A stretch of DNA of 64,000 nt from Streptomyces orinoci (GTDB taxonomy: Bacteria > Actinomycetota > Actinomycetes > Streptomycetales > Streptomycetaceae). Location of the stretch: the NCBI RefSeq assembly GCF_003121295.1, contig NZ_PHNC01000009.1:1-64000 (forward strand), in the 5' to 3' direction. Position numbers and translations under genes: made by a program. The notes below the pieces were generated by a model. The model was not told the DNA's origin, searched no databases, and was given only the letters and a program-made list of their open reading frames with translations. Shown in pieces: positions 5,274 through 22,212 of the stretch (its first letter is position 1; each line of letters begins with the position of its first letter).

Positions 5274-5328
5274 CCCCGGGCCGGTTACCCGTTCACCCGT
5301 GCCCCAAAGGGGGTGCGCCGGAGCCGCG

Positions 5329-6333
5329 TTACGCGGGTCCCCCGCGCCCCCGGCGGAGGCCGAAGCGCTCGCGGTAGGCGGAGGGGCTCAGGCCGGTACG
5401 GCGGCGCAGCTGGGTGCGGAGATTGGCGGCGGTTCCCAGGCCGCTGGCCCGGGCGACCGCCTCCAGGGGGAGTTCGCCGAGTTCTATCAACCGCCGGGCC
5501 AGCAGGGTCCGTTCGGAGGTCAGCCAGGCCAGCGGCGTGGTGCCCAGCTCGGCGCGGAACCGGCGGTGCAGGGTGGCCGGGCTGACCGCCGCCCGGGCCG
5601 CCAGCTCGGCGACGCCCAGCGGCCGGTCCAGCCGCTGCCGGGCCCACTCCAGCACCGGTGCCAGCGAGGTGTCCGGCAGCGCCGGAAGCGGCTGCTCCAC
5701 GAACTGCCGCTGTCCGCCGTCCCGGTGGGCGGCGAAGACCAGGCGGCGGCTGACCGCGTTGGCCACCTCCGCCCCATGGTCCCGGCCGATCACATACAGC
5801 CCGAGGTCCAGCGCCGCCGCGCTGCCCGCGGCGGTGAGCACCATCCCGTCGTCCACGAACAGCACATCCGGCTCCAGCCGGACCGCCGGATGGCGTTCGG
5901 CGAACTCCCGGCTCCAGAGCCAGTGCGTGGTGGCCCGGCGGCCATCCAGCACCCCGGCCGCGGCCAGCACAAAGGCGCCGGTGCAGAAGCTCATCATCCG
6001 GGCGCCGCGCCGGGCGGCGCGGGCCACCGCGTCCAGCACCGCGGGGTCCGGACCCCGCAGGGGATCCGGCCGGTTGGGGACGATCACCGTGTCGGCACCG
6101 TCCACCGCCTCCAGACCGGCCACCTGGGAGAGGGTGAAGAACCCGGCGTGCATGCTCAGCGCGGGCCGCGCCGAGCAGAGGGTGAAGTCGTACCACTGCC
6201 GCCCCAGTTCGGGGCGGCGCAGCCCGAACAGCTCGGTGGCCACACCCAGTTCAAAGGGGTTGGAGCCCTCATCGACGATGACGGCGACCCGGTGCGGACG
6301 GCCGCCGGCCGGCTGCGAGGAATCGTGCGGCAT
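5329..6333 (-). CDS. GlxA-family transcriptional regulator (DJ-1/PfpI domain + AraC HTH)
   Basis: A 334-residue protein. Residues about 15-190 are a DJ-1/PfpI-like domain with the MMSFCTGAFVLAAAG elbow and the ATTHW motif. Residues about 220-325 hold two helix-turn-helix units of AraC type (LGVAELAARAAVSPATLHRRF; LEAVARASGLGTAANLRTQLRRRTGLSPSAYR). Such regulators sense small molecules through the PfpI-like domain and usually activate a neighbouring gene. It is divergent from the cupin gene 51 bp away, the likely target. A TAGGAA hexamer lies six bases before the ATG, suggesting a leaderless transcript. Confidence 0.88.
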   Translation of the reverse strand: MPHDSSQPAGGRPHRVAVIVDEGSNPFELGVATELFGLRRPELGRQWYDFTLCSARPALSMHAGFFTLSQVAGLEAVDGADTVIVPNRPDPLRGPDPAVLDAVARAARRGARMMSFCTGAFVLAAAGVLDGRRATTHWLWSREFAERHPAVRLEPDVLFVDDGMVLTAAGSAAALDLGLYVIGRDHGAEVANAVSRRLVFAAHRDGGQRQFVEQPLPALPDTSLAPVLEWARQRLDRPLGVAELAARAAVSPATLHRRFRAELGTTPLAWLTSERTLLARRLIELGELPLEAVARASGLGTAANLRTQLRRRTGLSPSAYRERFGLRRGRGGPA

Positions 6334-6384
6334 ATGCGATTCCTAGCACTGTCGCCGGCCCCCGGCCAAGGTGAGGATGGCCGC

Positions 6385-6774
6385 ATGATCAATGAACCGG
6401 TGAATCTGCGGGCCGCTCTGGACACCTTCGACTCCCTGTGGAGCCCGCGCATAGTGACCCAGGTCAACGACTATGACGTACGGCTGGCCAAGGTGGCGGG
6501 CGAGCACCTGTGGCATGTGCACGAGAACACCGATGAGTTCTTTATGGTGCTGGCGGGGGAGTTGCGGATAGCGTTGCGGGAGCCGGCCGGGGAGCGGGTG
6601 GTGACGCTGGCCAAGGGCTCGGTGTTCGTGGTCCCGCGCGGGACCGAGCACAAGCCTTCCTCGCCCGAGGGGGCCGAGCTGCTGATGTTCGAGCCCACCG
6701 GCACGCTGACGGTGGGGGACCGGCACAATGAGGTGCCGGACCATGTGGACGCCACCACCGGGCACGCGCTTTAG
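6385..6774 (+). CDS. small single-domain cupin protein
   Basis: A 129-residue protein beginning at ATG 6385 behind GGTGAGG. It has one cupin barrel: LWHVHENTDEFFMVLAGEL carries the H-x-H-x(4)-E metal set, and VPRGTEHKP the second-motif His. The fold binds a metal and small polar ligands; such proteins are isomerases, dioxygenases or lyases, or simple binders, so function is open. It is divergent from the GlxA-type regulator and probably controlled by it. Confidence 0.8.
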   Translation: MINEPVNLRAALDTFDSLWSPRIVTQVNDYDVRLAKVAGEHLWHVHENTDEFFMVLAGELRIALREPAGERVVTLAKGSVFVVPRGTEHKPSSPEGAELLMFEPTGTLTVGDRHNEVPDHVDATTGHAL

Positions 6775-6790
6775 GCCGCACCCGCCGGCC

Positions 6791-7258
6791 TCAGTCCTCC
6801 TCGGTCAGCCGCCCCAGCAGCTCGATCGCTTCGATCACCACGGCCCGCTCCCGGTCGTCCAGGCGGTCGCGCAGCGCCTGGACGATCCAGCTCTCCTTGA
6901 TCCGGCGGCCTTCCTCGATCTTCCGCCGCCCCTGCTCGGTGAGCGACATGATCATCTGGCGGCGGTCGCTGGGATGAGGCGAGCGCTGCACCAGCCCGGC
7001 CTCCTCCAGGGCGGCGAGCGTGGCCCCCATGGACTGCGGACGCACCCGCTCGGCGCGGGCCAGTTCCACGGTGGTGGCCGGGCCCTTGCGGACGAGCCTG
7101 CTGAGCACGGCGGCCTGGGACATGGTGATCCCGTCCCCCTCGGAGGCCGCGCGCAGCCGCCGGGTCAGCTGGCCGGACAGCGCGCGCAGTTTCGACGCCA
7201 CCTCTGCAAGGTCCGGCTGGCCGGCGGAAACGGTGGTCTGCTGATCTTGGGGCCTCAC
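6791..7258 (-). CDS. MarR-family transcriptional regulator
   Basis: A 155-residue protein if the GTG at 7258 is used (RBS-like GGAAGG upstream); an ATG at 7291 would overlap the MFS stop. The winged helix spans roughly residues 45-110 (ITMSQAAVLSRLVRKGPATTVELARAERVRPQSMGATLAALEEAGLV, wing SDRRQMIMSLTEQGR). MarR proteins are dimeric repressors released by small ligands. It follows the MFS gene by 40 bp on the same strand, so it is probably co-transcribed, and is the obvious candidate for the palindrome in the MFS promoter (8768-8794). Confidence 0.85.
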   Translation of the reverse strand: MRPQDQQTTVSAGQPDLAEVASKLRALSGQLTRRLRAASEGDGITMSQAAVLSRLVRKGPATTVELARAERVRPQSMGATLAALEEAGLVQRSPHPSDRRQMIMSLTEQGRRKIEEGRRIKESWIVQALRDRLDDRERAVVIEAIELLGRLTEED

Positions 7259-7298
7259 ATGGCCAGGGTACCTTCCGAACCGGGCGCCCATTGCCCGG

Positions 7299-8762
7299 TC
7301 ATTCCCGCTCGCGGGCCAGTCCGCGGTCGGCCAGGGTGGCCAGCAACAGGACGCCACCCAGCACGCTCAGCACCACCGCCACCGTGTGCAGTCCGCCCGT
7401 ACTGGCCCGCTGTCCGTAGAGCAGGCCGATCAGGCTGGAGGAGGCGATGGCGCCCTGATACTGCGCGGTCCGGAAGAGCCCGGCGGCGGTGCCGGTCTGC
7501 TCGGCCGGCGTCTGGACGTACATCGCCGCCTGATTGCCCACCGCGTTCAGTCCGTTGGGCAGTCCGAAGACCAGGCCGATGGCCACCAGCAGCCAGACAG
7601 GGGTGCCGGGCCCGGCGAAGACGAGCGCCGCCGAGGCCGCCACCATGGCGGCCGTACCCGCCAGCAATGGGCCCCGCACCCGCCGCCGCCGGGCCGCCAG
7701 GGCCGAACACAGCGCCGCCATCACACACATGGGCAGCATCAGCACGCCGGTCATCAGCGCCGAGTAGCCCCGGGACTCCTCCAGCCACTGGGTGTAGCCG
7801 TAGAGGATGCAGTAGATGACCAGATAGGCGGCCCCGCAGCGCAAATAGGTGCGCACCAGCGGCCGGTTGGCGGCCAGCATCCGCACATCGAGGAACGGCT
7901 GCCGGGCCCGGCGCTCCCAGAAGGTGAGCGCTGTGCCCATCACCAGCCCCAACGCCAGCAGTGGCCAGGGGAGTTGGCGCAGCCGCAGCAGGAAGAACAT
8001 CACCGGCAGCAGGGTGCCGGTGAACAGCAGCACGCCCAGCGGGTCCAGTGCCGCCCAGCCGCCGCGCCGGTCCGGCCCGGTCCGCGGTGGCTCGTCCTTG
8101 GGCAGCCAGAGCAGGGTGAGGACCAGTCCGGCGGCGGCCAGTGGCAGGTTCACCCCGAAGACCGCCCGCCAGCCGGCCACCCCCACCAGCAGTCCGCCCA
8201 GTACCGGGCCGAGGGCTGCGCTGGAGAGAGCGGCGATGGTCAGCGAGCCAAGTACCCGGCCGGGGGTCTCCACCCCCAGCCGGGCCGACTGGCTGCGGAT
8301 CATGGCCATGGCGGCCGGATAGGCGGCCGAGGTGCCTATGCCGATCAGCACCCGCACGGCGATCAGCTCACCCAGCGAGCGGGCCAGTAGCCCGCCGGCA
8401 CCGGCCAGGCCCACCAGGACCAGCCCCGTCAGATAGACCCGGCGGGCACCCAGCCGGTCGGCCACCCTGCCCATCGCCGGCTGTGCCACCGAACTGGCCA
8501 TATAGAGCCCGGCGATCAGCCAGACGGTGGCCGACGCACCGGCCTGGAAGGCGCGGCCGATGGGCACCAAAGCGGTGGAGATCATTGTGGAGTTGACCGG
8601 GTTGAGCATGGATCCGATCACCACCGGGGCCACAAAGCGGGGGCCGAAGCCGGGATTCCGGCCGGGTGGTGCCGTGCTGACGGACGCCCTGCCCCGGGTG
8701 GTCCGTGCCGCGGGGCCGTGTGCGCCTGCCGCGCCTGGTATGCCTGGTGAAAGGAAGCCCAT
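7299..8762 (-). CDS. MFS drug exporter, DHA2-like
   Basis: A 487-residue protein with about 14 hydrophobic segments after a 40-residue soluble lead, as in the DHA2 (14-TMS) multidrug family. The loop motif GRVADRLGARRVYL (motif A) after the second segment and the GxxxGPVLGG motif C region (ALGPVLGGLLVGVAGWRAVF) point to a proton-driven antiporter that exports drugs. No Shine-Dalgarno sequence precedes ATG 8762; the -10 hexamer lies six bases upstream, implying a leaderless mRNA. Linked to the MarR gene downstream. Confidence 0.85.
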   Translation of the reverse strand: MGFLSPGIPGAAGAHGPAARTTRGRASVSTAPPGRNPGFGPRFVAPVVIGSMLNPVNSTMISTALVPIGRAFQAGASATVWLIAGLYMASSVAQPAMGRVADRLGARRVYLTGLVLVGLAGAGGLLARSLGELIAVRVLIGIGTSAAYPAAMAMIRSQSARLGVETPGRVLGSLTIAALSSAALGPVLGGLLVGVAGWRAVFGVNLPLAAAGLVLTLLWLPKDEPPRTGPDRRGGWAALDPLGVLLFTGTLLPVMFFLLRLRQLPWPLLALGLVMGTALTFWERRARQPFLDVRMLAANRPLVRTYLRCGAAYLVIYCILYGYTQWLEESRGYSALMTGVLMLPMCVMAALCSALAARRRRVRGPLLAGTAAMVAASAALVFAGPGTPVWLLVAIGLVFGLPNGLNAVGNQAAMYVQTPAEQTGTAAGLFRTAQYQGAIASSSLIGLLYGQRASTGGLHTVAVVLSVLGGVLLLATLADRGLARERE

Positions 8763-9044: not shown

Positions 9045-9398
9045 ATGACGGACAACCGGAAGGCGGCCGGCGCCGTACTGCTGCACCGCCACGGCCACCG
9101 GCCCGCCGCACACTGGGCGGCGGCCGGTACCGTGCTCTACGGGGCGGCCCTGGCCGTCACCTTCGCGGTGAGCATCCCCCTCAACGATGAACTGGCCCGG
9201 CTGGGCCACCATGCCTCGGCCGCCCAACTGGCCCATATTCACCACCGGTTCACCGGCATCTGGCAACCGGCCAACCGGACAAGGACCTTGCTCTGCACCG
9301 GCGCGCTGGGCTGTCCGGCCAGGGCCCTGGTCCTGCGCGGGCGGGGCGGCCAACAGGCGTCCGCGTACCCGCGGCGGGGTGTCGCGGCCGGGGCGTGA
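9045..9398 (+). pseudogene. N-terminally truncated DUF1772 (anthrone-oxygenase-like) membrane protein
   Basis: The 117-residue frame from ATG 9045 covers only the last two-thirds of a DUF1772-type protein: a hydrophobic segment (VLYGAALAVTFAVSIPLNDEL), the N-x2-L family motif, the HHRFTGIWQPANRTRTLL helix and a final hydrophobic stretch (TGALGCPARALVL). The first transmembrane segments expected for this roughly 150-residue family are not found in any upstream frame. I infer a decayed gene, though a short functional protein is not excluded. Confidence 0.5.
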
Positions 9399-9403
9399 CC
9401 GGG

Positions 9404-10504
9404 TCAGTGTTCCCGGCGGAGGGCCAGCAGCGCGGCGTCGTCCGACAGCACCCCGCCCGCGTACGCCAGCAGATCCGCCACCAGACGGTCCAGCACCGCA
9501 TCCGGCGGACCCACCGGCAGCCGGGACAGACGCTCCGGCAGCGGGTAGAAGCGCCCGGCGGCGTCCCGGGCCTCGGTCACCCCGTCCGTGCAGAGCAGCA
9601 GGAGATCGCCGCGCCGGAGGACGAAGCGCTGGGTGTGGTACCCGCCGCCGACCAGGGCCCGCAGGGCCAGTGGCGGATCGGCCTCCGCCGCCCGCACCCC
9701 GATTTCGGACACCGTCCCGTCGGTGCGCCGCACCAGGGGCGGCAGATGGCCGCAGTTGACCAGCTCGGCCGGGGCGCCGTGCGGCGGCAGGCCGAGCAGG
9801 GCGGCGGTGACAAACTCCTCGCCCAGGCCCCGGCGCCGTACCGTCGCGTCCAGCCGCCCGGCCACCGCCGCCAGCTCGGCCTCCACCTGGGCCGCCTCCC
9901 GGAAGGTGCCCAGTACATCGGAGGCGGTCTCCACGGCGGCCAGCCCCTTGCCGCGCACATCGCCGAGCAGCACCCGGATCCCATAGGGGGTAGTGAGCAC
10001 CTCATAGAGGTCACCGCCCACCCGGGCGTCCGCGGCCGCCGCCAGATAGCGCACCGCCACCCGCAGCCCGTCGATCCGCTCCGGCACCGGGCGCAGCAGG
10101 GCCAGCTGTGCCGCCTGGGCCACCGAGCGCGAACTGAGCAGTTCCCGCTCCCTGGTGGCCACCAGCACCACATTGGCGGTGCTGACGCAGGTCACCGCCA
10201 GCACGGCGAAGGCCGAGGTGAGGTGGACGGCCAGGGCGACCTGTGGATCGGCCACGATCAGCAGCGGGACCACCGCCAGCGTCAGCAGGCCCACCAGCAG
10301 CGGCACCCGGGCCCGGCGGGTGCCGATGCCGGCCAGTGCGGGGGCGGTGGCCAGCACGGGGGAGAAGGTCAGCCGGGGATTGTTGACCACATCAAGGACC
10401 ACCGCCACGGTGAGCAGCGCATAGGCGGTCAGCACCAGCCCCCGCACATGGCGTGGCGGGGCCGGCGGACCGAAGGGGCTCTCACCGCGGGGGTCTCGCT
10501 TCAT
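9404..10504 (-). CDS. PP2C-type (SpoIIE-like) membrane serine phosphatase
   Basis: A 366-residue protein. Residues about 20-120 contain four hydrophobic segments. From about 135 the SpoIIE/RsbU PP2C domain begins: the linker helix AQAAQLALLRPVPERIDG, the metal motif DARVGGDLYEVL, GDVRGKGLAA, then NCGHLPP and the final LCTDGVTEARD and SDDAAL motifs. All expected Asp metal ligands are visible. Such proteins dephosphorylate anti-anti-sigma factors. There is no sigma-factor, anti-sigma or antagonist gene nearby, so its partner is elsewhere. Convergent with the DUF1772 remnant (5 bp gap). Confidence 0.88.
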   Translation of the reverse strand: MKRDPRGESPFGPPAPPRHVRGLVLTAYALLTVAVVLDVVNNPRLTFSPVLATAPALAGIGTRRARVPLLVGLLTLAVVPLLIVADPQVALAVHLTSAFAVLAVTCVSTANVVLVATRERELLSSRSVAQAAQLALLRPVPERIDGLRVAVRYLAAAADARVGGDLYEVLTTPYGIRVLLGDVRGKGLAAVETASDVLGTFREAAQVEAELAAVAGRLDATVRRRGLGEEFVTAALLGLPPHGAPAELVNCGHLPPLVRRTDGTVSEIGVRAAEADPPLALRALVGGGYHTQRFVLRRGDLLLLCTDGVTEARDAAGRFYPLPERLSRLPVGPPDAVLDRLVADLLAYAGGVLSDDAALLALRREH

Positions 10505-12748: not shown

Positions 12749-13027
12749 ATGCTGCGTAATGGCTTGGAGCCCTGGCACCTGCTCGTCGTGGCCATTGTGG
12801 TGCTCGTTGTCTTCGGCTCGAAGCGCCTTCCGGACACGGCCAGGGCGCTGGGTAAGTCCTTGCGGATTCTGAAGAGCGAGACCCGGGCGATGAAGGAGGA
12901 GAGCTCGTCGGCCGCCCCGCAGGGGCAGGCGCAGACGGAGGCGAAGCCGCACACCATCCAGGCGGCCCCCGGCGATGTGGCGTCCGCCCGTCCCGTGCAC
13001 GAGAACGACACCAGTTCGCCTCGCTGA
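12749..13027 (+). CDS. tatA: Sec-independent translocase subunit TatA
   Basis: A 92-residue protein: short N-terminus, one transmembrane helix (WHLLVVAIVVLVVFGSKRLPD), the FGSKRLP hinge, the amphipathic helix TARALGKSLRILKSETRAMKEE and an acidic/polar tail. This is standard for TatA, which forms the pore for folded Tat substrates. A GAGGGGAAGAGGTG ribosome-binding region precedes ATG 12749. tatC is not next to it. Two Tat-type signal peptides appear later in the window (39578 and 47351 genes). Confidence 0.93.
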   Translation: MLRNGLEPWHLLVVAIVVLVVFGSKRLPDTARALGKSLRILKSETRAMKEESSSAAPQGQAQTEAKPHTIQAAPGDVASARPVHENDTSSPR

Positions 13028-13330: not shown

Positions 13331-13358
13331 ACTTGCTATATTGCGCAACCGAGCAAGT
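13331..13358 (+). promoter_or_regulatory. TTGC-rich inverted-repeat motif upstream of DUF6542-LCP module 1
   Basis: ACTTGC (13331) and GCAAGT (ending 13358) form perfect outer arms around a central TATTGCGCAA. The same three elements in the same order and spacing occur upstream of the second DUF6542-LCP module (21887-21914, opposite strand). It ends 52 bases before the DUF6542 start, so it is probably an operator or activator site; the binding protein is unknown. Confidence 0.65.
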
Positions 13359-13410
13359 CAGGCATGGTTCTGGCGGTCTGTCTCCGCATGGCCGCAGAAG
13401 GGAAGCGCGC

Positions 13411-13977
13411 ATGGGGGGCAGCCCACCCGGTGCCCTGGGAAACCGGATGTGGCAGGAGGACACGGGGCGCGGTTCCGTGGCTCATGGTTCGGCCGGAGTG
13501 CCCAAGCAGCCGGTCAGATCCCGGGAACCAGGCGGCAACCGCACCGGGAGACCGGCACCCAGGAGGCCACAGCCCCCGCCGGCACCGGCCACCGGGCAGA
13601 AGCTGGCCCTGGCCGGAGCGCTGCTCGCGGTGGGGGCCGCGGTGGACGAGGCCACCGGCCCCGGCCTGGGCTGGGTCTACGCCCTGGGGGCCGCCGCGGC
13701 CGCCGCCCTGCTGGCCTCGGCCTGCGCCCGCCCCGGCGGCTGGTGGGTGCCGGCGGTGCCCCCGCCCGCGGTCGCCCTGGTGGCCCTGTGCGCCCAGCTG
13801 CTGACCGATGACTCCCATGCGACGGGCAAGGCCGCCACGGCGGCGGCGATGACCCAGGCACTGCGCTGGGCCAATGACAGCTTCCCGGCCATGGCGGTGG
13901 CGGAGGCCATCGTGCTGACGGTGCTGGTGGCCCGCGCCGCCGGCGCGGGGCGGGACGGAAGGACCAAACGTGCCTGA
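13411..13977 (+). CDS. DUF6542-type membrane protein, module 1
   Basis: A 188-residue protein; the start at ATG 13411 has a good RBS (GAAGGGAAG) and avoids a long low-complexity extension. Residues 1-65 are Pro/Arg-rich and cytoplasmic-like; then four hydrophobic segments follow (KLALAGALLAVGAAVDEATG, YALGAAAAAALLASACA, GGWWVPAVPPPAVALVALCAQLL, PAMAVAEAIVLTVLVARAA). This fits the small DUF6542 family, whose role is unknown. The stop overlaps the next start by 8 nt, so it is coupled to the LCP gene. A diverged copy of the pair is at 20086-21769. Confidence 0.75.
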   Translation: MGGSPPGALGNRMWQEDTGRGSVAHGSAGVPKQPVRSREPGGNRTGRPAPRRPQPPPAPATGQKLALAGALLAVGAAVDEATGPGLGWVYALGAAAAAALLASACARPGGWWVPAVPPPAVALVALCAQLLTDDSHATGKAATAAAMTQALRWANDSFPAMAVAEAIVLTVLVARAAGAGRDGRTKRA

Positions 13978-15538
13978 CATCACCCGCGTCCACCGCCCCC
14001 GCCCCACCACGGGCCGTACACCCGGCCGTACGGCCGGCGCCCAGCGGCGCCGCCGCCCCGGCCCGGGCGCGGCCGCCCGGATCGCGGTCTGCCTGTCCTC
14101 CGCGGCCATCATGGTGACCAGCGGCACCGGCTGGCTGGCCTACCACTGGCTGAACAACGGGCTGATCACCTCCAGCGCCCTGGACGCCCTGCGCAAGGGG
14201 GCGCCCCGAAAGCTGGACGACTCGGTCAACCTCCTGCTGATCGGCCTGGATTCGCGCAAGGACATGGACGGCAATGACCTGCCCAAGGAGTTCGTCCAGC
14301 AGGAACTGCACGCCGGATCAAGCGAGATCGGCGGCTACAACACCAACACCCTGATCCTGATGCACATTCCGGCCGACGGCGGGAAGGTGACCGCCTTCTC
14401 CATCCCACGCGACGACTATGTCCAGGTGGCCGGCGGACGCGGCGAGCACAAGATCAAGGAGGCCTATGGCATCGCCAAGGCCGAGGCCCAGGACACCCTG
14501 TCCGCGCAGGGCGTCAAGGGTGCCGAGCTGGAGCACCGCAGCCGGGAGGCGGGACGCGAGGCCACCCTGGCCACCGTGCAGGACTTCCTGGGCGTGCCCA
14601 TCGACCACTTCGCCGAGGTCAACCTGCTGGGCTTCTATGACATCGCCAAGGTGGTGCAACCGGTCCCGGTCTGCCTGAAGAACGCGGTGCACGACCGCTA
14701 CTCCGGCGCCGACTTCCCGGCCGGACCACAGAAGTTGAATGCCCGTCAGGCCCTGGCCTTTGTCCGCCAGCGGCATGGGCTGACCAATGGCGACCTGGAC
14801 CGGACTCACCGTCAGCAGGCGTTCATCTCCTCGGTGACACACAAGCTGAAGTCGCAGGGCGTGTGGAGCGATCTGGACAAGCTCCAGGGCCTGTTCGATG
14901 TGGTGAAGAAGGATGTGGTCATCGACGACCGGTGGAACATCCTGGACTTCGCCCAGCAGGCCCCCAACCTCACCGGCGGAAACGCCGAGTTCCACACCCT
15001 GCCGATCGCCGGATTCGCCAACCGCAAGGGGGAAGCGGTCAATCTGGTCGATCCGGTGAAGGTACGGGCCCTGGTCCAGTCGATGATCGGCCAGGCCCAT
15101 GCCGCGGCCGCCTCCCCGTCCCCCTCCTCCTCCTCGCCCCCCGTCCCGGCCGACGCCGCGACGACGGTGGTGGACGTACGCAATGCCTCGGGCACCCCGG
15201 GAGCCGCGGCCGCCGAGTCCAGGGCACTGTCCGCACTGGGCTACCGGCCCGGGAGGATCGCCAACGCCCCGGCGTCCGGCCATACTTCGGTGCTGCACGG
15301 CCCGGGGGCCGAGGCGGCGGCCCGGCAGATCGCCGCCGCGCTGGGGGTGGAGCCGACGGCCGGACGGGCGGTCCCGGCCGGGCATGTGGTGGTCACCCTC
15401 GGCCCCGGCTTCAAGGTCACCGCCCCCGCCAGGCCCTCGCCGAGCGCCAAGTCCAAGGCCGGGGAGCCCTCCCCCGTCTCCACGGACGACTTCCAGGGCC
15501 CCTCGGTGAAGATGGGCGGCGTCCCCTGCGTGGACTGA
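13970..15538 (+). CDS. LCP-family (LytR-CpsA-Psr) cell-wall glycopolymer ligase with LytR_C domain, module 1
   Basis: A 522-residue protein starting with GTG 13970. After a basic cytoplasmic tail (to about 40) there is one transmembrane helix (IAVCLSSAAIMVTSGTGWLAYHW). The LCP catalytic domain follows (about 80-310): NLLLIGLDSR, NTNTLILMHI, FSIPRDDYV, the HKIKEAYGI motif, VNLLGFYDI, and ALAFVRQRHG with the conserved Arg residues. LCP proteins transfer lipid-linked polymers (teichoic acid, capsule) to peptidoglycan outside the cell. Residues about 390-480 are the LytR_C domain (TVVDVRNASGTPG), absent from the second copy. It ends in GPSVKMGGVPCVD, almost identical to copy 2. Confidence 0.9.
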   Translation: MPDITRVHRPRPTTGRTPGRTAGAQRRRRPGPGAAARIAVCLSSAAIMVTSGTGWLAYHWLNNGLITSSALDALRKGAPRKLDDSVNLLLIGLDSRKDMDGNDLPKEFVQQELHAGSSEIGGYNTNTLILMHIPADGGKVTAFSIPRDDYVQVAGGRGEHKIKEAYGIAKAEAQDTLSAQGVKGAELEHRSREAGREATLATVQDFLGVPIDHFAEVNLLGFYDIAKVVQPVPVCLKNAVHDRYSGADFPAGPQKLNARQALAFVRQRHGLTNGDLDRTHRQQAFISSVTHKLKSQGVWSDLDKLQGLFDVVKKDVVIDDRWNILDFAQQAPNLTGGNAEFHTLPIAGFANRKGEAVNLVDPVKVRALVQSMIGQAHAAAASPSPSSSSPPVPADAATTVVDVRNASGTPGAAAAESRALSALGYRPGRIANAPASGHTSVLHGPGAEAAARQIAAALGVEPTAGRAVPAGHVVVTLGPGFKVTAPARPSPSAKSKAGEPSPVSTDDFQGPSVKMGGVPCVD

Positions 15539-15596
15539 CGGCCGCACTGTCGTCCGGCAACCGCCGCGTCCTCCGGCGGACATGGCGCGGCCCCGC

Positions 15597-15617
15597 CGCG
15601 GATCCCCGTGATCCGCG
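15597..15617. terminator. hairpin between convergent LCP and DUF4142 genes
   Basis: A perfect 8-bp stem CGCGGATC / GATCCGCG with loop cccgt, 59 bases after the LCP stop. The rest of 15539-15769 shows nothing else. Confidence 0.6.
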
Positions 15618-15769
15618 CACCGGAGAACGTACCGCCGCTTCCGCCGGGCCAGGCGCGGAGCCCGGTGGAAGCGGCGCGGTACGCCGCCGGTGCGCCCGGT
15701 GAGGTCCGGCCAGCCCGTCGTGCGCCCGGGCGGGGACCACAGGGGAGCGGCGGGGCCGCGCGGCCCGTA

Positions 15770-16300
15770 TCACCTGTGGTGCGTCTGGTGGCCCATCATG
15801 CAGTCGCGGATCATGTCCAGGTGCTTGGCGATGACCGGCCGGGCCTTGCGGGCGGCGTCCCGCACCATCGAGTCCCGGCCGTGCTCGATCTCGTAGTCCA
15901 CCAGGTCCAGGGCCTGGACGTGCCCGGTGTCCTGGGACCGCAGCCAGCCGTCGTCATAGCGCGGTGTGCGGGCTTTCTTCCTGAGGTCCTTCAGGTCCTG
16001 CTCCTGCTGTGCGCTGACCGAGCGCGGCAGCGTCACCCTGAGCTTGTCCGCCAGCGTCTTGGTGTCCTGGTCAAGCCGGGTGTGGTCGCGGACCAGGACC
16101 TGGCCGAGGTCCTTGACACACCGGGTGGCGCCATTGCTCTGGGCGTCGCGGCCCGCGGCGATCTCGGCCAGATTGCCCCGGTGAACGGACGTCAGAAACA
16201 CCTCGTCGTGGTCGTCATTGGTGGCCAGCGCGGTCCCGGCGGAAGCCGTGGTCAGTGCGATGGCCACCAGTGCTGTGGTGATCCGGTGTCGCATGCGCAT
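15770..16300 (-). CDS. secreted DUF4142-family protein
   Basis: A 176-residue protein with a Sec signal peptide (RMRHRITTALVAIALTTASAGTALA). The rest is helical and His/Asp/Glu-rich, matching DUF4142, a ferritin-like four-helix family: EVFLTSVHRGNLAEIAAGRDAQSNGATRCVKDLGQVLVRDHTRLDQDTKTLADKL. Two Cys and the C-terminal DMIRDCMMGHQTHHR are notable; the Met/His-rich end could bind metal. Function unknown; in other bacteria members are membrane or periplasmic and stress-linked. Single gene. Confidence 0.8.
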   Translation of the reverse strand: MRMRHRITTALVAIALTTASAGTALATNDDHDEVFLTSVHRGNLAEIAAGRDAQSNGATRCVKDLGQVLVRDHTRLDQDTKTLADKLRVTLPRSVSAQQEQDLKDLRKKARTPRYDDGWLRSQDTGHVQALDLVDYEIEHGRDSMVRDAARKARPVIAKHLDMIRDCMMGHQTHHR

Positions 16301-16479
16301 CGTTCATCGCTCCGTTTCTTCGTCGGCCCGCGGCACGCTTGCCTCTGGCGCGGGCCGGTCAGATGAAGGGCACGCCCATCGCGCCCTCGCAGGCAGATGA
16401 CTGCCCCAGGGCGGCGCGCCGCCCGCTCGCGGGCGGCCCGGAGTCCCCCGAACGGAGCAATCCCCGGCCCGGGGGGAGC

Positions 16480-17064
16480 TCAGCGGCCGAGCAGCCCCGA
16501 CTGAGTGCGCATCAGGCCGGACACCAGTCCGCCGGTGGTGTCCAGCAGCCCGGTCGCCGTTCCGGTGACGCTGCCCAGGAGGTTGAAGGCCAGGCCGGTC
16601 ACCGTGTTCAGCAGGCCGCCGACCAGCGACAGCAGCCCGCTGCCGCCGTCCCGGGAGAAGTCGCCGCGGGCCCGGTCGGACTCCGCCCGGGAGCCGTCCA
16701 CGGCCGCCCGGTCCGGCTGAGCGGCCGTCAGCTGGACGCGCAGCTGTGCCCGGTCCCGGTCCAGGACCGCGAGCCGGTCGCCGACCGCCTTGCACTGCCG
16801 GCCCTGCTCCTCGGTGCGGTTGCGGACGGCCGCGCACTCCGCGGCCACCTCGGAGGCCAGGCGGGTCATCCGGTCCCCCTCGATGGCCTGAAGCCCCTCC
16901 GCGGCGCTGCGGCGCAGCTGCTCGGGGCCGGCGGCCGGGACGGCGGGCGCGGGGGCCTGCCGCGGTACGACGGCGGTGGCCGGGGCGGCGGCCGGGGCGA
17001 TGGTGGCCAGGGTGGCACACAGGGTGGCGGCGATACGGAGGGCGGATCTGCGTGGGGCTGCCAT
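16480..17064 (-). CDS. secreted hypothetical protein
   Basis: A 194-residue protein; start at 17064 has a good RBS (GAAGGAG) and begins a signal peptide (basic PRRSALR, then IAATLCATLATIAPAAAPATA). The middle is a charged helical region with coiled-coil character and two Cys (AAECAAVRNRTEEQGRQCKAV), ending in a Gly/Leu/Thr-rich hydrophobic tail (LLSLVGGLLNTVTGLAFNLLGSVTGTATGLL). The tail resembles sequences in small secreted actinobacterial proteins with surface activity, but no family is recognised. Confidence 0.65.
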   Translation of the reverse strand: MAAPRRSALRIAATLCATLATIAPAAAPATAVVPRQAPAPAVPAAGPEQLRRSAAEGLQAIEGDRMTRLASEVAAECAAVRNRTEEQGRQCKAVGDRLAVLDRDRAQLRVQLTAAQPDRAAVDGSRAESDRARGDFSRDGGSGLLSLVGGLLNTVTGLAFNLLGSVTGTATGLLDTTGGLVSGLMRTQSGLLGR

Positions 17065-17474
17065 GACTGCTCCTTCACGGAGGGGATCTTGCCGGTCACC
17101 CTGCGTCCTGAAGCGGCGCCCCGCAATCGGAAGCGGCCGTGCGGCAGGCCGGCTGACGCACCGTCCGGCGCCATTCGATCGCAGCTGTAAGGCCGTCAGA
17201 TCGGGCTCGCAGAGCACCTCTACCGGATTCACCACCGGCGGTACGCCGGACGGGTTCCAGTGGCTATCCCCGTGCCACAGAGGATATTTGGCGACCGCAC
17301 AGCCTGGTCTATCTATCGACAAAGAGCTTCGGTTATTCAGAGAGCAACTGCGTGGTCAAGCGGACTGCCGCGCCCCAAAGGGGCGCGGGGCGGCTGCGGC
17401 ATGCGGCTCCGCCGCGTGGGCGCGACCAGCCACCGACCGCCGGCAGCCGCATCACCTCGTATCCAGCAGAGCGC
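17065..17474. other. gene-free region with hairpin repeat, copy 3
   Basis: No supported gene. It contains the upstream region of the 17064 gene and, at 17370-17386, the perfect hairpin GCGCCCC-aaa-GGGGCGC. This is followed at 17398-17437 by the long form of the intergenic repeat (ATGCGGCTCCGCCGCGTG, then CGACCAGCCACCGACC), closely matching the copy at 2955-3030. Confidence 0.7.
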
Positions 17475-18374
17475 TCAGCGCCAGTCGGCCGCGAACGCCC
17501 GTGCCGGGTTGCCGGTGAAGACCTGTTCGGTGAAGGCGGTCCCCAGCTCCGCCGCCAGCCGCGGCAGCAGTCTGCGCAGCAGATAAGGCATTCCGGGGCC
17601 GCCGCCCGAAGCCGCCCGCGCCGCCGCCGTGGTGGTGTCGCCGCCGATCAGGATCCGGTCCGCGTAACCCGCCTCCGCCAGCGCGGTCAGCTGGTCCAAC
17701 AGCCGCCAGTCGGTGGCGTGATGGGCGCGTGACGGGCCGTCGAAGGCGAGGAAGGCGCCCGATCCGGCGAGCTCCCGCTGGGCCCCGGTGTCCGGTGAGC
17801 GGCTCAGATGGCCCAGGATCACCCGGTGCGGCGGCACCGCCAGCCGGCCGCAGAGCAGGTCGAGTACGTCCAACGCACCGGTGCCCAGCTCCAGATGGAC
17901 GGCGATCGGCGCCCCGGTGGCGTGATGGGCCTGCGCGGCCGCCGTCATCACCCGGCGGGCATGGGGACTGAGGCCGTGGAAGTCCCCGGCGACCTTGATC
18001 AGTCCGGCTCTGACCGGCGCCGTGGTGAGGTCCGCGATGAACAGCTCGGCCAGCCGCGCCGGTTCACCGGCCGGCCGCTCGGGACGGTAGTGCGCGGCCT
18101 GGTGCAGCCCGGTGGCGGCCACCACCCGCACACCGGCGGCCCGGGACACCTCGGCGAGCTCGGTGAGCCGGCGGCCCAGCCCGCGCGGGGTCCACTGGAC
18201 GACCGTTCCGCCGCCCAGCTCACCGAAGGCCCGCAGCTCGGCCAGGGCGGCGTCCGGGTCGTCGAGCTCCTGCCCCGGCAGCCGGGCACTGCGGAAGAAG
18301 AGGTGGTCATGGGCGTTGGTGATGCCCAGCTCGGTGGCGGGGACATCGCCAAGTACGGTGCGCACGGCGCTCAT
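17475..18374 (-). CDS. phosphotriesterase-family (PTE-like) amidohydrolase
   Basis: A 299-residue protein. Metal-site signatures of the PTE family are all visible: the N-terminal H-x-H (NAHDHLFF), the bridging carboxylated Lys (AGLIKVAGD), two further His (VHLELG and LGHLSR regions) and the terminal Asp (ILIGGDTT). Members range from phosphotriesterases to lactonases and sugar-phosphate lactonases, so substrate is open. An RBS (GGGAGG) precedes ATG 18374. Two perfect palindromic operators lie immediately upstream. Single gene. Confidence 0.85.
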   Translation of the reverse strand: MSAVRTVLGDVPATELGITNAHDHLFFRSARLPGQELDDPDAALAELRAFGELGGGTVVQWTPRGLGRRLTELAEVSRAAGVRVVAATGLHQAAHYRPERPAGEPARLAELFIADLTTAPVRAGLIKVAGDFHGLSPHARRVMTAAAQAHHATGAPIAVHLELGTGALDVLDLLCGRLAVPPHRVILGHLSRSPDTGAQRELAGSGAFLAFDGPSRAHHATDWRLLDQLTALAEAGYADRILIGGDTTTAAARAASGGGPGMPYLLRRLLPRLAAELGTAFTEQVFTGNPARAFAADWR

Positions 18375-18395
18375 CGGGCCTCCCGGGATGATCTA

Positions 18396-18443
18396 GTAAC
18401 GGGCCAACCGTTACATGGATCGGCGTAACGCGCAAGGCGTTAC
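18396..18443 (-). promoter_or_regulatory. twin operators upstream of the PTE-like gene
   Basis: Two 19-bp perfect inverted repeats of the same design, GTAACGGGCCAACCGTTAC (18396-18414) and GTAACGCGCAAGGCGTTAC (18425-18443), centres 29 bp apart. Shared consensus GTAACG-N7-CGTTAC. They overlap the expected promoter of the minus-strand gene. This is typical of a TetR- or GntR-type repressor binding two sites; no regulator gene adjoins. Confidence 0.8.
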
Positions 18444-18474
18444 GGCGTGGCTTCGGGAGGGAAACGGGAACCGC

Positions 18475-19290
18475 TCAGGGGCTCTTGTAGCCCCGCGCCC
18501 ACTGCAGCCCCCAGCCATAGAGCCGGTCCAGGTCCGACTGGAAGCCATAGACATAGGTGGCCTCGCGGTGCACGGTCAGATGGCCGTCCCGGTTCTCGAT
18601 CAGGGCCACCGCGCAGGAACGTGCCTGCGGATCATGGCCGTCCAGCTCCATGGCGAACTGGTGGCCGTCGGGCAGGTAGAAGGTGATGGTGCTGTCGATC
18701 CGGCCGAACACCGGAGTGCAGTCGTAGTTGTAGACAAAGACCAGGATGCGGCGGAAGGCGTCCCGCTGGTCGAGGTTGATGTACAGGGTCTCCCCGGTCG
18801 GCCCGCCGAAACGGTTGTCCCCGCTGAGCGAGATATACGGGGGATGGAACAGGTCCCCATGGAACTCGCCCAGCGACTGGACCACGCCCTTGCTGCCGTC
18901 CATCAGCTCGTACAGACAGGCGAGATCGAGATCGACCGACACCAGCGGCTGCCCATGGGCCTGGAGTTGGGCGGCGGAGGGGGAGAACAGGGCGCGCAGC
19001 AAACCGGAGTTGCGCGGGACACTCGAGCTGCCCAGCATGCGCCAGGTGAGATTGACTCTCAAGGTGCCACCGGTGGTGCTGTGATGGGTGAGCCAGTCGG
19101 TGGGATGGGTTTTGGAGAGTCGTTTGTGGTGCGGAGTGGCCCAGTCAAAGGCGTGTTGCGCCTCTCTGCGCCGGTTGCCGTTTCCCACCAGGTATGACCA
19201 GAGGCTGCTCCCGTCCTCGCTGCGTACCACGGGGCCCGTACTCTGCCCGCCGGGCACCGGGCGCCGGGGCGTGCGTACTCGTGGGCGCAT
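18475..19290 (-). CDS. TerD-family-like (tellurium resistance/stress) protein
   Basis: A 271-residue protein with a strong GGAGGAGG RBS before ATG 19290. The first 90 residues are basic, Arg-rich and low in hydrophobics. The remainder resembles the TerD/TerA beta-sandwich: VNLTWRMLG, VSVDLDLACLYELMDGSKGVVQSLG, the DNRFGG motif, GETLYINLDQRDAFRRILVFVYNYD, and AMELDG. These include the acidic loop residues used for Ca2+ binding in TerD proteins. Probably cytoplasmic. No other ter genes are present. It precedes the PTE gene, but the operators separate the two. Confidence 0.75.
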   Translation of the reverse strand: MRPRVRTPRRPVPGGQSTGPVVRSEDGSSLWSYLVGNGNRRREAQHAFDWATPHHKRLSKTHPTDWLTHHSTTGGTLRVNLTWRMLGSSSVPRNSGLLRALFSPSAAQLQAHGQPLVSVDLDLACLYELMDGSKGVVQSLGEFHGDLFHPPYISLSGDNRFGGPTGETLYINLDQRDAFRRILVFVYNYDCTPVFGRIDSTITFYLPDGHQFAMELDGHDPQARSCAVALIENRDGHLTVHREATYVYGFQSDLDRLYGWGLQWARGYKSP

Positions 19291-19367
19291 CCGCCCTCCT
19301 CCTTCGCTGGATCCGGCGTTCAGCAGGATCAACGCGAGGCGGACGGACAGGACATGGGTGAAGCGGG

Positions 19368-20024
19368 TCAGCCGGCCCGGGCCACGGCCTTCCCGGCCTT
19401 GTCCCAGTTCTCCTTGAGGCGGTCCAGATAGGAACCGGCCGCGCTGCCGGGGGTGGCGCCCCGGGCGAAGGCCGCCATGTTCCCGGCACCGGCGTTGTAA
19501 CCCAGCGCCAGCAGCTGGTCCTTGGTGTAGGGACCGGCCCAGTGGGCGGGCAGCTGGGCGGCCAGGTCGTGCAGGAACCAGGACTCGGCGGTGATCGCCA
19601 GATCGGGGTCGTCGGGCAGTTCCTGCCAGTCGCGGTGGGCGAAGGAGCGGCCCTGCTTGGTCTGGTCGAAGGCCGCCTTGTGCATATTGGCGATGCCGAA
19701 CGCGGAATCCGGCTTGATCTTCTGCCAGGACCGCTCCAGGGAGGGATCGTGCGGCTTGTAGTCCTCGTTGTAGAGGATCGCCATCACCAGCCGCGGACTG
19801 ACCCCGGCCTCCCGGGCGTGCTTGATCACCTGGGGTGCGTAGTGCGCGGGGTCCTGGTTGGAGGTGTCCGCCGCGGCGCTCTGCCGAGGGGCGGCGGGGG
19901 CGGCGGACGACGGCCGGCCGTCCGGGTGCGTGGCGCCGGTACCGCCGGAACACGCCGTGGCGCAGCCGGCGGTCAGCACGGCCGCCACCGCGAGCAGGCG
20001 GGCCGTACCCCGGGTCTTCCTCAC
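19368..20024 (-). CDS. lytic-transglycosylase-like lipoprotein
   Basis: A 218-residue protein with a lipoprotein signal: charged start (RKTRGTAR), hydrophobic core and lipobox L-T-A-G-C21. A Ser/Ala-rich linker to about 55 precedes an SLT-like lysozyme fold: SPRLVMAILYNEDYKPH with the presumed catalytic Glu, AFGIANMHKAAF, and LLALGYNAGAGNMAAFARGA, where the GYNAG motif is typical of transglycosylases. It should cleave peptidoglycan glycan strands at the outer face of the membrane. It lies between the TerD-like and LCP genes, consistent with envelope remodelling. Confidence 0.78.
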   Translation of the reverse strand: MRKTRGTARLLAVAAVLTAGCATACSGGTGATHPDGRPSSAAPAAPRQSAAADTSNQDPAHYAPQVIKHAREAGVSPRLVMAILYNEDYKPHDPSLERSWQKIKPDSAFGIANMHKAAFDQTKQGRSFAHRDWQELPDDPDLAITAESWFLHDLAAQLPAHWAGPYTKDQLLALGYNAGAGNMAAFARGATPGSAAGSYLDRLKENWDKAGKAVARAG

Positions 20025-20085
20025 GTTCTTCCTCCTGTCCGGCTGTCCGGCGCGTGCGGCATGCCGGGGTCCATCATCCCCGACC

Positions 20086-21381
20086 TCAGTCCACGCAGGG
20101 CACCCCGCCCATGGTCACCGAGGGCCCGGCGAACTCCCGCTGCCCCGGGCCGCCGACCGCGGAGGCGGGGCGGCCCCCCTTGCCGTCCGGTGCGGCGGAC
20201 GGCGCGGCGGATGTTACGGCGGCGGATGGTGCGGTGGCGGACGGTGTGGCGGCTGGTGTGGTGCCGTCCGTTGCGCCGGGGGACGGAGCGGTGCCCTCCG
20301 GTCCGATCATCGACTGGACCGTCGCCCTGATCCGTTCCGGATCGACCAGGTTGACATCTTCCCCGCCGATGGTGGCGAAGCCGGTGATGGGCAGGGTGTG
20401 GAAGTCGGTCCGGCCGCCGGTGAGGGCGGGCGCCTGCCGGGCGAAGTCCAGTACGTCCCAGGAGCTGTCCAGCACCACATCCTTCTTCAGCACCTCGAAC
20501 AGCTTCCGCAACCGGCCCAGGTCGTCAAAGGCGCCCCGGCTCTTGAGCCGGTGGGTGACCGAGGAGAGGAACGCCTGCTGGCGGTGGGTACGGTCCAGGT
20601 CGCCGTTGTCCAGGCCATGCCGCTGACGGACAAAGGCCAGCGCCTGCCGGGGGTCGAGGTCCTGGACGCCGGCCGGGAAGTCCGCCCCCGAATAGCGGTC
20701 GTGCACCGGGTGGTTGAGGCAGACCGTGACCGGCTGCAGCACCTTGGCAATGTCATAGAAACCCAGCAGATTGACCTCGGCGAAGTGGTCGATGGGAACA
20801 CCCAGGAACTGCTGTACGGTCTGCAGGGTCGCCGCCCGGCCCGCCTCCCGGCTGCGGTGCTCCAGCTCGGCCCCCCTGATCCCCTGGGCGTCGAGCCTGT
20901 CGTGGGCGGCGGTGTAGGCGTAGGAGTACGCCTCCTTGATCTTGTAATGGCCCTGCGGGGAGCCGTCCCCGTTCAGGGTCTGCACATAGTCGTCCCGGGG
21001 TATCGAGAAGGCGGTCGCCCGGCCGTCGTCCGCCGGAATGTGCATCAGGATCAGCGTGTTGGTGTTGTAGTAGCCGATCTCGCTGGAACCGGCGTGCAGT
21101 TGGTCCTGGACGAACTCCCTGGGCAGGTCGTTGCCGTCCATGTCCTTGCGCGAATCCAGGCCGATCAGCAGCAGGTTGACCGAATTGTCCGGATGTCGGG
21201 GGGCGTGCCGGCGCGTGGTGTTGAGGGCGTCGGAGGTGGTCAGCCCGTCGGTGAGGGTGCGATAGGTGAACCAGGTCAGCCCGCAGGCGACCAGCACCAG
21301 GGCGGAGGCGGCCCACAGCAGGGCGCGCGCCACCCTGGCCGTCACCGGAGGACGGGGGGTGTGACGGGGGGTGTCACGCAT
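20086..21381 (-). CDS. LCP-family cell-wall glycopolymer ligase, module 2
   Basis: A 431-residue protein. One transmembrane helix (ALLWAASALVLVACGLTWFTY) is followed by the LCP domain (about 60-300): NLLLIGLDSR, NTNTLILMHI, FSIPRDDYV, HYKIKEAYSYA, VNLLGFYDI and ALAFVRQRHG. It is very similar to the module 1 protein but lacks the LytR_C domain; an Ala/Pro/Thr-rich linker leads to the same final motif GPSVTMGGVPCVD. It starts within the stop of its DUF6542 partner (8-nt overlap, ATGCGTGA), exactly as in module 1. Confidence 0.9.
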   Translation of the reverse strand: MRDTPRHTPRPPVTARVARALLWAASALVLVACGLTWFTYRTLTDGLTTSDALNTTRRHAPRHPDNSVNLLLIGLDSRKDMDGNDLPREFVQDQLHAGSSEIGYYNTNTLILMHIPADDGRATAFSIPRDDYVQTLNGDGSPQGHYKIKEAYSYAYTAAHDRLDAQGIRGAELEHRSREAGRAATLQTVQQFLGVPIDHFAEVNLLGFYDIAKVLQPVTVCLNHPVHDRYSGADFPAGVQDLDPRQALAFVRQRHGLDNGDLDRTHRQQAFLSSVTHRLKSRGAFDDLGRLRKLFEVLKKDVVLDSSWDVLDFARQAPALTGGRTDFHTLPITGFATIGGEDVNLVDPERIRATVQSMIGPEGTAPSPGATDGTTPAATPSATAPSAAVTSAAPSAAPDGKGGRPASAVGGPGQREFAGPSVTMGGVPCVD

Positions 21382-21769
21382 GCCCGTGCCCTCCGCCGCC
21401 CGGCGTCCTGATGGCCCGCAGGACCAGGACGGCCAGCGCCGCGCACTGGGCGGCCACCATCACCGGGAAGCTGTGGACCGCCCAGCGGGCCGCGGCCGTC
21501 GTCAGCGGCTCGCCACGCAGCGGAGAGGCGTCGGCGAAGAGCAGTGAGCCGACGGCCGTCACCGCGAACACCACCAGCGGCGGGAGCGGAATCACCCAGC
21601 TCACCCCGCCGTGCGCGGCCGCGAAGGCGGTCGCCCACAGCGCCGCCAGCACCGCGCCCAGGGCCAGCCCCCAGGCGTGCGCCGAGCCGGTCAGCAGATC
21701 CACACCACCGCCAACGGCCGGTGGAACCAGCGCGATCGCGGCGGTGACGGCCGCCGGTGGTGCGGTCAT
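21374..21769 (-). CDS. DUF6542-type membrane protein, module 2
   Basis: A 131-residue protein with four hydrophobic segments (AAIALVPPAVGGGVDLLTGS, LGAVLAALWATAFAAAHGG, VIPLPPLVVFAVTAVGSLLF, FPVMVAAQCAALAVLVLRAI). It lacks the long Pro/Arg-rich start of the module 1 copy, but the segment order and the (W)A-x-x-SFP-MV motif match it. It is coupled to the LCP gene by an 8-nt overlap. The TTGC motif lies about 120 bases upstream. Confidence 0.72.
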   Translation of the reverse strand: MTAPPAAVTAAIALVPPAVGGGVDLLTGSAHAWGLALGAVLAALWATAFAAAHGGVSWVIPLPPLVVFAVTAVGSLLFADASPLRGEPLTTAAARWAVHSFPVMVAAQCAALAVLVLRAIRTPGGGGHGHA

Positions 21770-21886
21770 GCGGATGCCCTCGCTTCACTGCTCCATACCC
21801 GGTTCGCTCTGTCCGGCGGTACGCCTGCCCGCCTCCGGCGCGGCTATCGCGGCCCCTGTTGGAGGACGCATGGGCCGGGGCCGGGG

Positions 21887-21914
21887 TTGCACACTTGCGC
21901 AATACGGCAAGTGT
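21887..21914 (-). promoter_or_regulatory. TTGC-rich inverted-repeat motif upstream of DUF6542-LCP module 2
   Basis: Perfect 8-bp arms ACACTTGC (21891-21898) and GCAAGTGT (21907-21914), overlapping a TTGCGCAA palindrome (21895-21902). Read on the minus strand it aligns without gaps to the motif at 13331-13358: ACTTGC, two bases, TATTGCGCAA, two bases, G-x-GCAA. It sits between the minus-strand module and the plus-strand cold-shock gene and could serve either. Confidence 0.65.
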
Positions 21915-22005: not shown

Positions 22006-22212
22006 ATGAGTGAGCGGGTCGGCGGCGTGGTCCGCTGGTTCAACCAGGCCAAAGGCTATGGCTATATCAATGGCGACGACGGGCGCGAGGTGCTGGTGCG
22101 GCGAGGAGCCATCGAGGGCGGCACCTTTGTGACCGAGGGGATGCGGGTGACCTATGTGGCGGTGACCGAGGGGGAAGAGGTGCACGCGGAACACGTCCGT
22201 CCCCTGGGATAG
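22006..22212 (+). CDS. atypical cold-shock-domain protein
   Basis: A 68-residue protein with RBS GGGAGGAA before ATG 22006. It is a single cold-shock domain: VVRWFNQAKGYGYINGDDGREVLVRRGAIEGG. RNP1 is changed from KGFGFI to KGYGYI and RNP2 from VFVHxSAI to VLVRRGAI, replacing a Phe and the His that stack on nucleic-acid bases. The usual acidic CspA-type surface is also altered. It may bind RNA with different specificity. Single gene, 53 bases before the Ub-Mut7C gene. Confidence 0.82.
   Translation: MSERVGGVVRWFNQAKGYGYINGDDGREVLVRRGAIEGGTFVTEGMRVTYVAVTEGEEVHAEHVRPLG

Follow-up and report, generated by a model that had tools for sequence, protein, structure and literature searches.

A predicted four-half-site operator and a candidate ArsR/SmtB-type regulator of LCP ligase genes in Streptomyces orinoci

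The window analyzed here is a stretch of 64,000 nucleotides (nt) from Streptomyces orinoci (contig NZ_PHNC01000009.1, positions 1 to 64,000), whose genome comprises 44 contigs and 7.5 Mb. It contains two modules on opposite strands, module A on the plus strand and module B on the minus strand, each composed of a DUF6542 gene followed by an LCP gene. LCP enzymes attach teichoic-acid-like polymers to the cell wall. Both modules are preceded by the same sequence motif, which raises the question of whether these ligases are controlled together and which protein would read the motif. The motif is part of a palindrome with four half sites, found upstream of four LCP genes of this genome. It is probably the operator of one ArsR/SmtB-type regulator, which as a repressor would gate the transcription of LCP (and Tat) genes from sigmaE-type promoters.

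The palindrome and its gene neighbors

The full palindrome of 28 bases, ACTTGC-N4-TTGCGCAA-N4-GCAAGT, contains four TTGC/GCAA half sites. The predicted palindromic operator of module A (site A, 28 bp, 13331-13358) reads ACTTGC-TATA-TTGCGCAA-CCGA-GCAAGT, and that of module B (site B, 21887-21912) reads ACTTGC-CGTA-TTGCGCAA-GTGT-GCAA on the minus strand. The sequence ACTTGCNNTATTGCGCAA occurs exactly twice in the window, with a third match at two mismatches representing site A read from the opposite strand; in 100 dinucleotide shuffles of the window, matches with three mismatches or fewer averaged 0.15 and never exceeded 1. The pattern TTGYNNNNTTGCGCAANNNNRCAA is present in exactly four copies in the 7.5-Mb genome and absent from the reversed control. 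All four palindromes lie upstream of LCP genes, two of them in the window. Site C (locus L024) belongs to a third DUF6542-LCP module (DUF6542 at 6052-6597 and LCP at 4440-6032, both minus), and site D (locus L025) lies between LCP_D (6517-7992) and a divergent tatA paralogue (∼6102-6370, minus). With 11 LCP genes in the genome, 4 of 11 carry a site. By position, the putative regulon of this organism comprises three DUF6542-LCP modules and one LCP gene without DUF6542.

An earlier sequence-only reading of the window had described a shared upstream motif of the same order and spacing, which is present and is in fact the longer palindrome. Its proposal that LCP paralogues are jointly controlled in one regulon is well supported by the position of all four sites before LCP genes, a pattern repeated across the genus, and a genome-wide search found no spread of the motif without a link to LCP. 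The notion of a pair of modules holds with respect to paralogy, as the LCPs of modules A, B, and C share 65 to 72% identity over the compared parts, and fails with respect to size, since a third module, a DUF6542-free LCP gene, and, in relatives, Tat and SLT genes are added.

The genus sample consists of 61 genomes, this one and 60 others. Exact sites number 30 in 20 of the 61 genomes, with none in the control. Of 24 inspected, 23 adjoin an LCP gene, a TatA gene, or both, and the 24th precedes a tatC gene (L053). Allowing one mismatch raises the number of site genomes to 22 by adding G027 and G010. A larger set, drawn from loci chosen by the motif and by ArsR together, holds 102 distinct sites with no more than one mismatch; gene labels were assigned by tblastn matches within 1.3 kb. 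At 94 of these, an LCP, DUF6542, or TatA match lies no more than 1.3 kb away and reads away from the site. Among the other eight, two adjoin genes for small membrane proteins of the X195 type and two adjoin ArsR; SLT and tatC each follow one site, another is close to the end of a contig, and the last is clearly a chance match. The L113 site, with one mismatch and a broken core, looks like a chance match; the L107 site (one mismatch) has an LCP match ∼260 bases further on, cut by the contig end; and no explanation was found for the L109 site, with two mismatches. The consensus with both strands merged is roughly GGTTGYWCRGTTGCGCAAYSTRGCAACC, in which conservation within the searched pattern is largely inherent to the search, the flanking G and C having been free.

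In relatives, sites are also found before tatA and tatC genes and an SLT gene, and most of these relatives' sites precede non-DUF6542 LCP, tatA, or tatC genes. The tatC gene behind the operator in L053 (4932-6086, minus) scores over the Pfam cut-off. One family of small membrane proteins of ∼190 to 270 amino acids is encoded behind or near sites in three genomes (L103:5424-6011, L105:5212-6030, and L053:4289-5002, minus); a Pfam search of the members from L103 and L105 gave nothing over the cut-off.

A candidate reader of the ArsR/SmtB type

An ArsR-type gene was seen near sites in three loci, and the copy from L064 served as the query for orthologues, which were called strong at >130 bits and at least 67% identity. 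Strong orthologues are present in 23 of the 61 genomes, including all 20 with exact sites. An exact site is thus found in 20 of the 23 genomes with a strong orthologue and in none of the 38 without one (Fisher p = 2.8e-13, an optimistic value because shared ancestry makes the genomes non-independent). At up to one mismatch, 21 of the 22 site genomes carry the orthologue, G027 among them. The 22nd, G010, has a site at one mismatch and a frameshifted ArsR gene (L111, ∼9300-9650), reflecting either decay or an assembly error. Because palindrome and ArsR go together in the sampled genomes, the ArsR-type protein is most likely the reader of the palindrome; the sequence-only reading, which knew of no regulator for the motif, is extended here by a candidate from co-occurrence.

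A protein-based fetch scanned named genomes with the ArsR alignment instead of the motif and retained the best 80 of 399 relatives. With one mismatch allowed, a site is present in 58 of the 61 fetched loci that include both an LCP gene and the region upstream of it, compared to 1 of 19 loci without; five Markov replicates gave no sites. Two of the 80 loci are labeled Microtetraspora (L190 and L192), and both have exact sites. In four loci, those of Streptomyces noursei (L187) and Streptomyces albospinus (L177) as well as L171 and L188, a site with one mismatch precedes codirectional DUF6542, LCP, and ArsR genes in this order, and TerD genes come further along, so that the module type of the window is physically tied to ArsR there.

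The ArsR gene of S. orinoci (G000:C25:1434724-1435032, minus) is found at a distance of 5.8 kb from site D and apparently forms an operon with the gene of a Mg2+-translocating ATPase of the MgtA type (TIGR01524, 643.7 bits; cut-off, 610.75). The protein matches NF033788 with 79.2 bits (cut-off, 55), and the L064 copy matches PF01022 (HTH_5) with 37.6 bits (cut-off, 22). The structure model of the S. orinoci protein, with a mean pLDDT of 77.8, shows a winged helix with recognition helix and wing. SqrR and SmtB are closest by sequence and by Foldseek, with TM-scores of ∼0.5 by query and 0.7 by target; CzrA is among the Foldseek matches. The protein may work like an ArsR-type repressor. Canonical metal ligands of ArsR/SmtB proteins are an alpha-3 Cys motif or an alpha-5 D-x-H...H-x-x-E set. 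Within the alignment of 16 ArsR rows, 13 have no Cys and 3 have one each, none of them conserved. The equivalent alpha-5 pattern is D-x-D...Q-x-x-D/E, in which D is found in 15 and 14 of the 16 rows and D/E in 13; such carboxylate-rich positions could suit a hard metal.

As a general feature, control of the ArsR operon by its own product was ruled out, because only a few weak operator candidates lie upstream of ArsR among the 80 fetched loci: L158 with one mismatch and L145, L163, L178, and L200 with two. Tat components recur around the regulator. In L115 (4510-5886), a tatA-tatC pair over the Pfam cut-offs stands immediately before the ArsR-mgtA pair, and in L171 (2998-3414, minus) a TatA/B-family gene, likewise over the cut-off, adjoins ArsR. 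A second ArsR subfamily is found in L096 to L099 (G033, G023, G004, and G049), with 55 to 60% identity to the first over 81 to 86 residues and, by eye, an apparent major-facilitator transporter adjoining; these four genomes have no operator at up to two mismatches.

Promoter overlap, a proposed mechanism, and competing explanations

According to the available part of PMC6767563, the LCP genes sco3044 and sco5358 are sigmaE targets in Streptomyces coelicolor, and sigmaE promoters of this organism, such as those of sco5358 and pkaA, include NNCAACC-N16-CGTCTN forms. A -10 matrix was built from 34 promoter rows hand-picked from the 91 of that paper, all with 16-nt spacers, a choice that is neither random nor complete. 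A sigmaE-type promoter overlaps site B (21863-21891, minus; TGCAACC-N16-CGTCCT, -10 at 7.1 bits), and a possible one is found at site A (13352-13380, plus; -35 AGCAAGT, 16-nt spacer, -10 GGTCTG at 5.7 bits). Across the collected sites, a CGTC-type -10 stands exactly 16 nt after RCAACC on 30 of 68 LCP sides, whereas each other spacing in the range of 4 to 43 accounts for 5 cases at most; it is found on 0 of 60 TatA sides and 0 of 68 other sides. These 30 cases fall into 22 spacer clusters, which argues against one copied promoter.

By eye, an AACC-N16-CGTCTT element follows the site in L171, L177, L187, and L188, with its start some 12 bases downstream. G063 has at best a weaker ArsR match (54% identity); its LCP_D orthologue (67%) has CAGAACC-N16-CGTCTT and, by eye, no operator, a single natural case consistent with the operator as something added to a sigmaE-type promoter. 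On the TatA side, many flanks have the sequence GCAAGTATGGT, for example in L043 and L023, with GTAT at offset 1 in 14 of 60. It could serve as a -10 element, for which the outer TTG half site, at 19 nt, would be the -35 element.

Directly established are the sites, the genome count, the gene neighbors, the phylogenetic tie to ArsR, and the N16 spacing to the -10 element, and from these a multistep mechanism can be proposed. One or two ArsR dimers would bind TTGC-N4-TTGC|GCAA-N4-GCAA, of which, at many LCP promoters, one outer half site (RCAACC) would double as the -35 element of a sigmaE-type promoter. As long as ArsR stays bound, neither RNA polymerase nor the envelope-stress sigma factor would gain access to the promoter. 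On its release by a signal, the accessory LCP glycopolymer ligases would be induced together, in three modules along with a DUF6542 partner, as would, in relatives, paralogues of tatA and tatC and the gene of an SLT transglycosylase.

As to the releasing signal, neighboring genes give no more than a hint of Mg2+ shortage or acid/envelope stress; among them, MgtA and TerD point to divalent cations. A more far-reaching version is tentative and rather doubtful: an ArsR with an all-carboxylate alpha-5 set and no conserved Cys would read Mg2+ or acid, gate sigmaE-type promoters, and control both the ligation of anionic glycopolymers by LCP enzymes and the rebuilding of the Tat system with paralogous TatA and TatC. 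In the acid stress transcriptome of Streptomyces albulus, as far as the available part of PMC7317143 reports it, the LytR-family gene MAGL008579 is up (log2 values of 1.29 and then 3.12), as is the TerD gene MAGL008582 (1.14 and then 2.52), alongside SigE-annotated acid-responsive genes, and its authors attribute the response of MAGL008579 to SigE. The spacing of the MAGL tags matches the LCP, ArsR, TatA/B-family, and TerD order of L171; the genes are possibly the same, and this is a lead only.

Several observations weigh against ArsR as the repressor at these promoters. The query was picked for its nearness to a site, G036 and G055 carry ArsR without a site at up to one mismatch, and 3 of the 61 LCP-bearing ArsR loci have none either. 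In S. orinoci, 7 of the 11 LCP genes lack a site, and the tatA paralogue at 12749-13027 is not downstream of site A and has no operator upstream of it. The -35 element at site A is weak, without the AAC of the consensus; site C has no fitting sigmaE-type promoter, and 38 of the 68 LCP-side sites lack a sigmaE-type -10 element at 16 nt. The canonical metal-ligand sets are absent from the ArsR alignment, and the ArsR-mgtA operon of S. orinoci, unlike many ArsR repressors, has no operator upstream at up to six mismatches. This last point would suit two other readings. HlyU-type ArsR proteins act as activators or anti-silencers, and the protein studied here could do the same, as HlyU is among the related structures and the -10 element at 16 nt is missing from those 38 LCP sides and all 60 TatA sides; the overlap of half site and -35 element in a fixed register (30 of 68) has the geometry of a blocking repressor, however, and activation appears unlikely. 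Alternatively, a different DNA-binding protein, co-inherited with the ArsR-mgtA-LCP-tat cluster, would read the palindrome while ArsR serves the ATPase only. Part of the tie between ArsR and the sites could be such co-inheritance, because ArsR is often in the same gene cluster as an LCP gene, and ArsR and LCP_D are often neighbors. In ArsR genomes, however, sites also lie on contigs other than that of ArsR and its cluster (three of the four in S. orinoci and those in G024, G022, and G043), and where ArsR follows a DUF6542-LCP pair in L171, L177, L187, and L188, the locus stretch has no match to mgtA. Other regulator types appear only singly in the neighborhoods viewed by eye, short of a full regulator screen, and a separate reader is considered distinctly unlikely.

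Two further explanations concern the origin and the target of the sites. Ancestral duplication alone, in which the module copies simply kept their promoter without shared control, would fit the paralogy of modules A, B, and C. It is hardly credible given that the half sites agree while flanks and N4 stretches differ, and that the fourth site of S. orinoci and most sites of relatives precede genes outside the DUF6542 modules. Site B could also serve the divergent cold-shock-domain gene (22006-22212, plus), a possible second target that begins ∼95 bp from the site on its opposite side, instead of or besides module B. This is the sole site among the 102 adjacent to such a gene, and its sigmaE-type -10 element is on the DUF6542-LCP side, which makes this target highly unlikely. 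Repression by ArsR through the four-half-site operator is preferred over these alternatives.

The modules, DUF6542, and related systems

Module A encodes a DUF6542 protein (13411-13977, plus, with a start at 13411 or 13447) and an LCP ligase with a LytR_C domain (13970-15538, plus). Module B encodes a DUF6542-like protein (21374-21769, minus) and an LCP ligase (20086-21381, minus). The inverted arrangement and the 8-nt overlaps of the sequence-only reading (13970-13977 and 21374-21381) are present as described, and its distance of about 6 kb is to be corrected to 4.5 kb between the two LCP stops and 8.5 kb between sites A and B. The same overlap (RTGCNTGA) is retained in five modules of other species (L104, L171, L177, L187, and L188), which suggests conserved translational coupling; module C lacks it. 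All four ligases, LCP A, B, C, and D, match PF03816 with 132 to 143 bits (cut-off, 24.6), and LCP A, C, and D show the LCP plus LytR_C architecture. An SLT-type transglycosylase gene (19368-20024, minus), 3' of LCP B and codirectional, is a possible third gene of unit B; an SLT homologue with 69% identity over 159 amino acids lies directly behind the operator in L056. The tatA paralogue (12749-13027, plus) adjoins site A from upstream and points towards it. This paralogue (MLRNGLEPWH) and one of the same type in L025 (MLRNALEPWH, 6102-6370) both adjoin operator-bearing LCP loci in differing orientations.

DUF6542 was assigned to both window modules by the sequence-only reading. In PF20177 (cut-off, 27), A reaches 39.5 and C 53.4 bits, and B stays below with 23.6 bits. 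A Pfam search of the 61 genomes gave 62 DUF6542 matches in 59 genomes, with a single match in 57. Three of the 62 are LCP-linked (A and C of S. orinoci and G068:C9), each with a site within 0.5 kb, a count independent of the motif. Of the other 59, 30 loci of the usual housekeeping type were inspected, and none has an LCP gene within 1.5 kb; 21 of the 59, compared with 46 sites, have no listed site <200 kb away on the same contig. DUF6542 A shares 18 to 26% identity with eight housekeeping copies, compared to 39 to 48% with six LCP-linked ones, so that by sequence the LCP-linked proteins form a separate, divergent accessory subgroup. DUF6542 in general is often found without LCP, an outcome that the sequence-only reading had named as refuting its proposal; a role as an obligate LCP partner was rejected, and one as a general partner is not supported. 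The idea that each ligase has its own membrane partner finds only partial support, for the accessory subgroup and not for the usual DUF6542. All eight modules considered have a site, which is not an independent count, as modules C, L104, L171, L177, L187, and L188 were found via the motif or ArsR. The DUF6542 structure model (pLDDT, 64.6; pTM, 0.29) was not used beyond the indication of several helices.

The sigmaE (CseBC) regulon of S. coelicolor is alike in the promoter form of site B and the 30 LCP sides; the available part of PMC6767563 mentions no ArsR operator, and tatA is absent from its main text, whereas here the -35 element would also be an operator half site and Tat genes belong to the putative regulon. 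The ArsR/SmtB repressors SqrR, mycobacterial SmtB, SmtB, CzrA, BigR, and SrnR share the winged helix and the link to metal-transport ATPases. The protein described here differs in the lack of a conserved Cys and of the alpha-5 His pair, in its predicted four-half-site operator, and in its putative targets, cell-wall ligases and protein export. Its operon partner resembles the MgtA/MgtB Mg2+ ATPases (TIGR01524), scoring over the cut-off; no paper coupling an MgtA-type ATPase to ArsR and LCP genes was found in the literature searched. CglA of Streptomyces venezuelae, found by a screen for suppressors of c-di-AMP mutants, is likened to LCP A, C, and D by its LCP plus LytR_C architecture; TatA and magnesium are absent from the main text of its paper, in the part available (PMC11481543). 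Nothing recognized as describing such a regulon was met in the literature on ArsR with LCP, ArsR with MgtA, DUF6542, and TTGCGCAA, a search outside of which subscription papers mostly lie. The components are of known kinds, and the regulon, the operator, and its overlap with sigmaE-type promoters appear new within the searched literature.

To our knowledge, the large number of LCP enzymes in Streptomyces and the conditions under which each is used have found little explanation. By choosing a subset of the LCP genes, overlapping sigmaE-type promoters, and being tied to Tat export and an Mg2+ ATPase, the proposed regulator-operator pair would offer a direct handle on this multiplicity. If the proposed control is true, cell-wall assembly would be added to the functions of the ArsR family, so far mainly associated with metal and redox detoxification.

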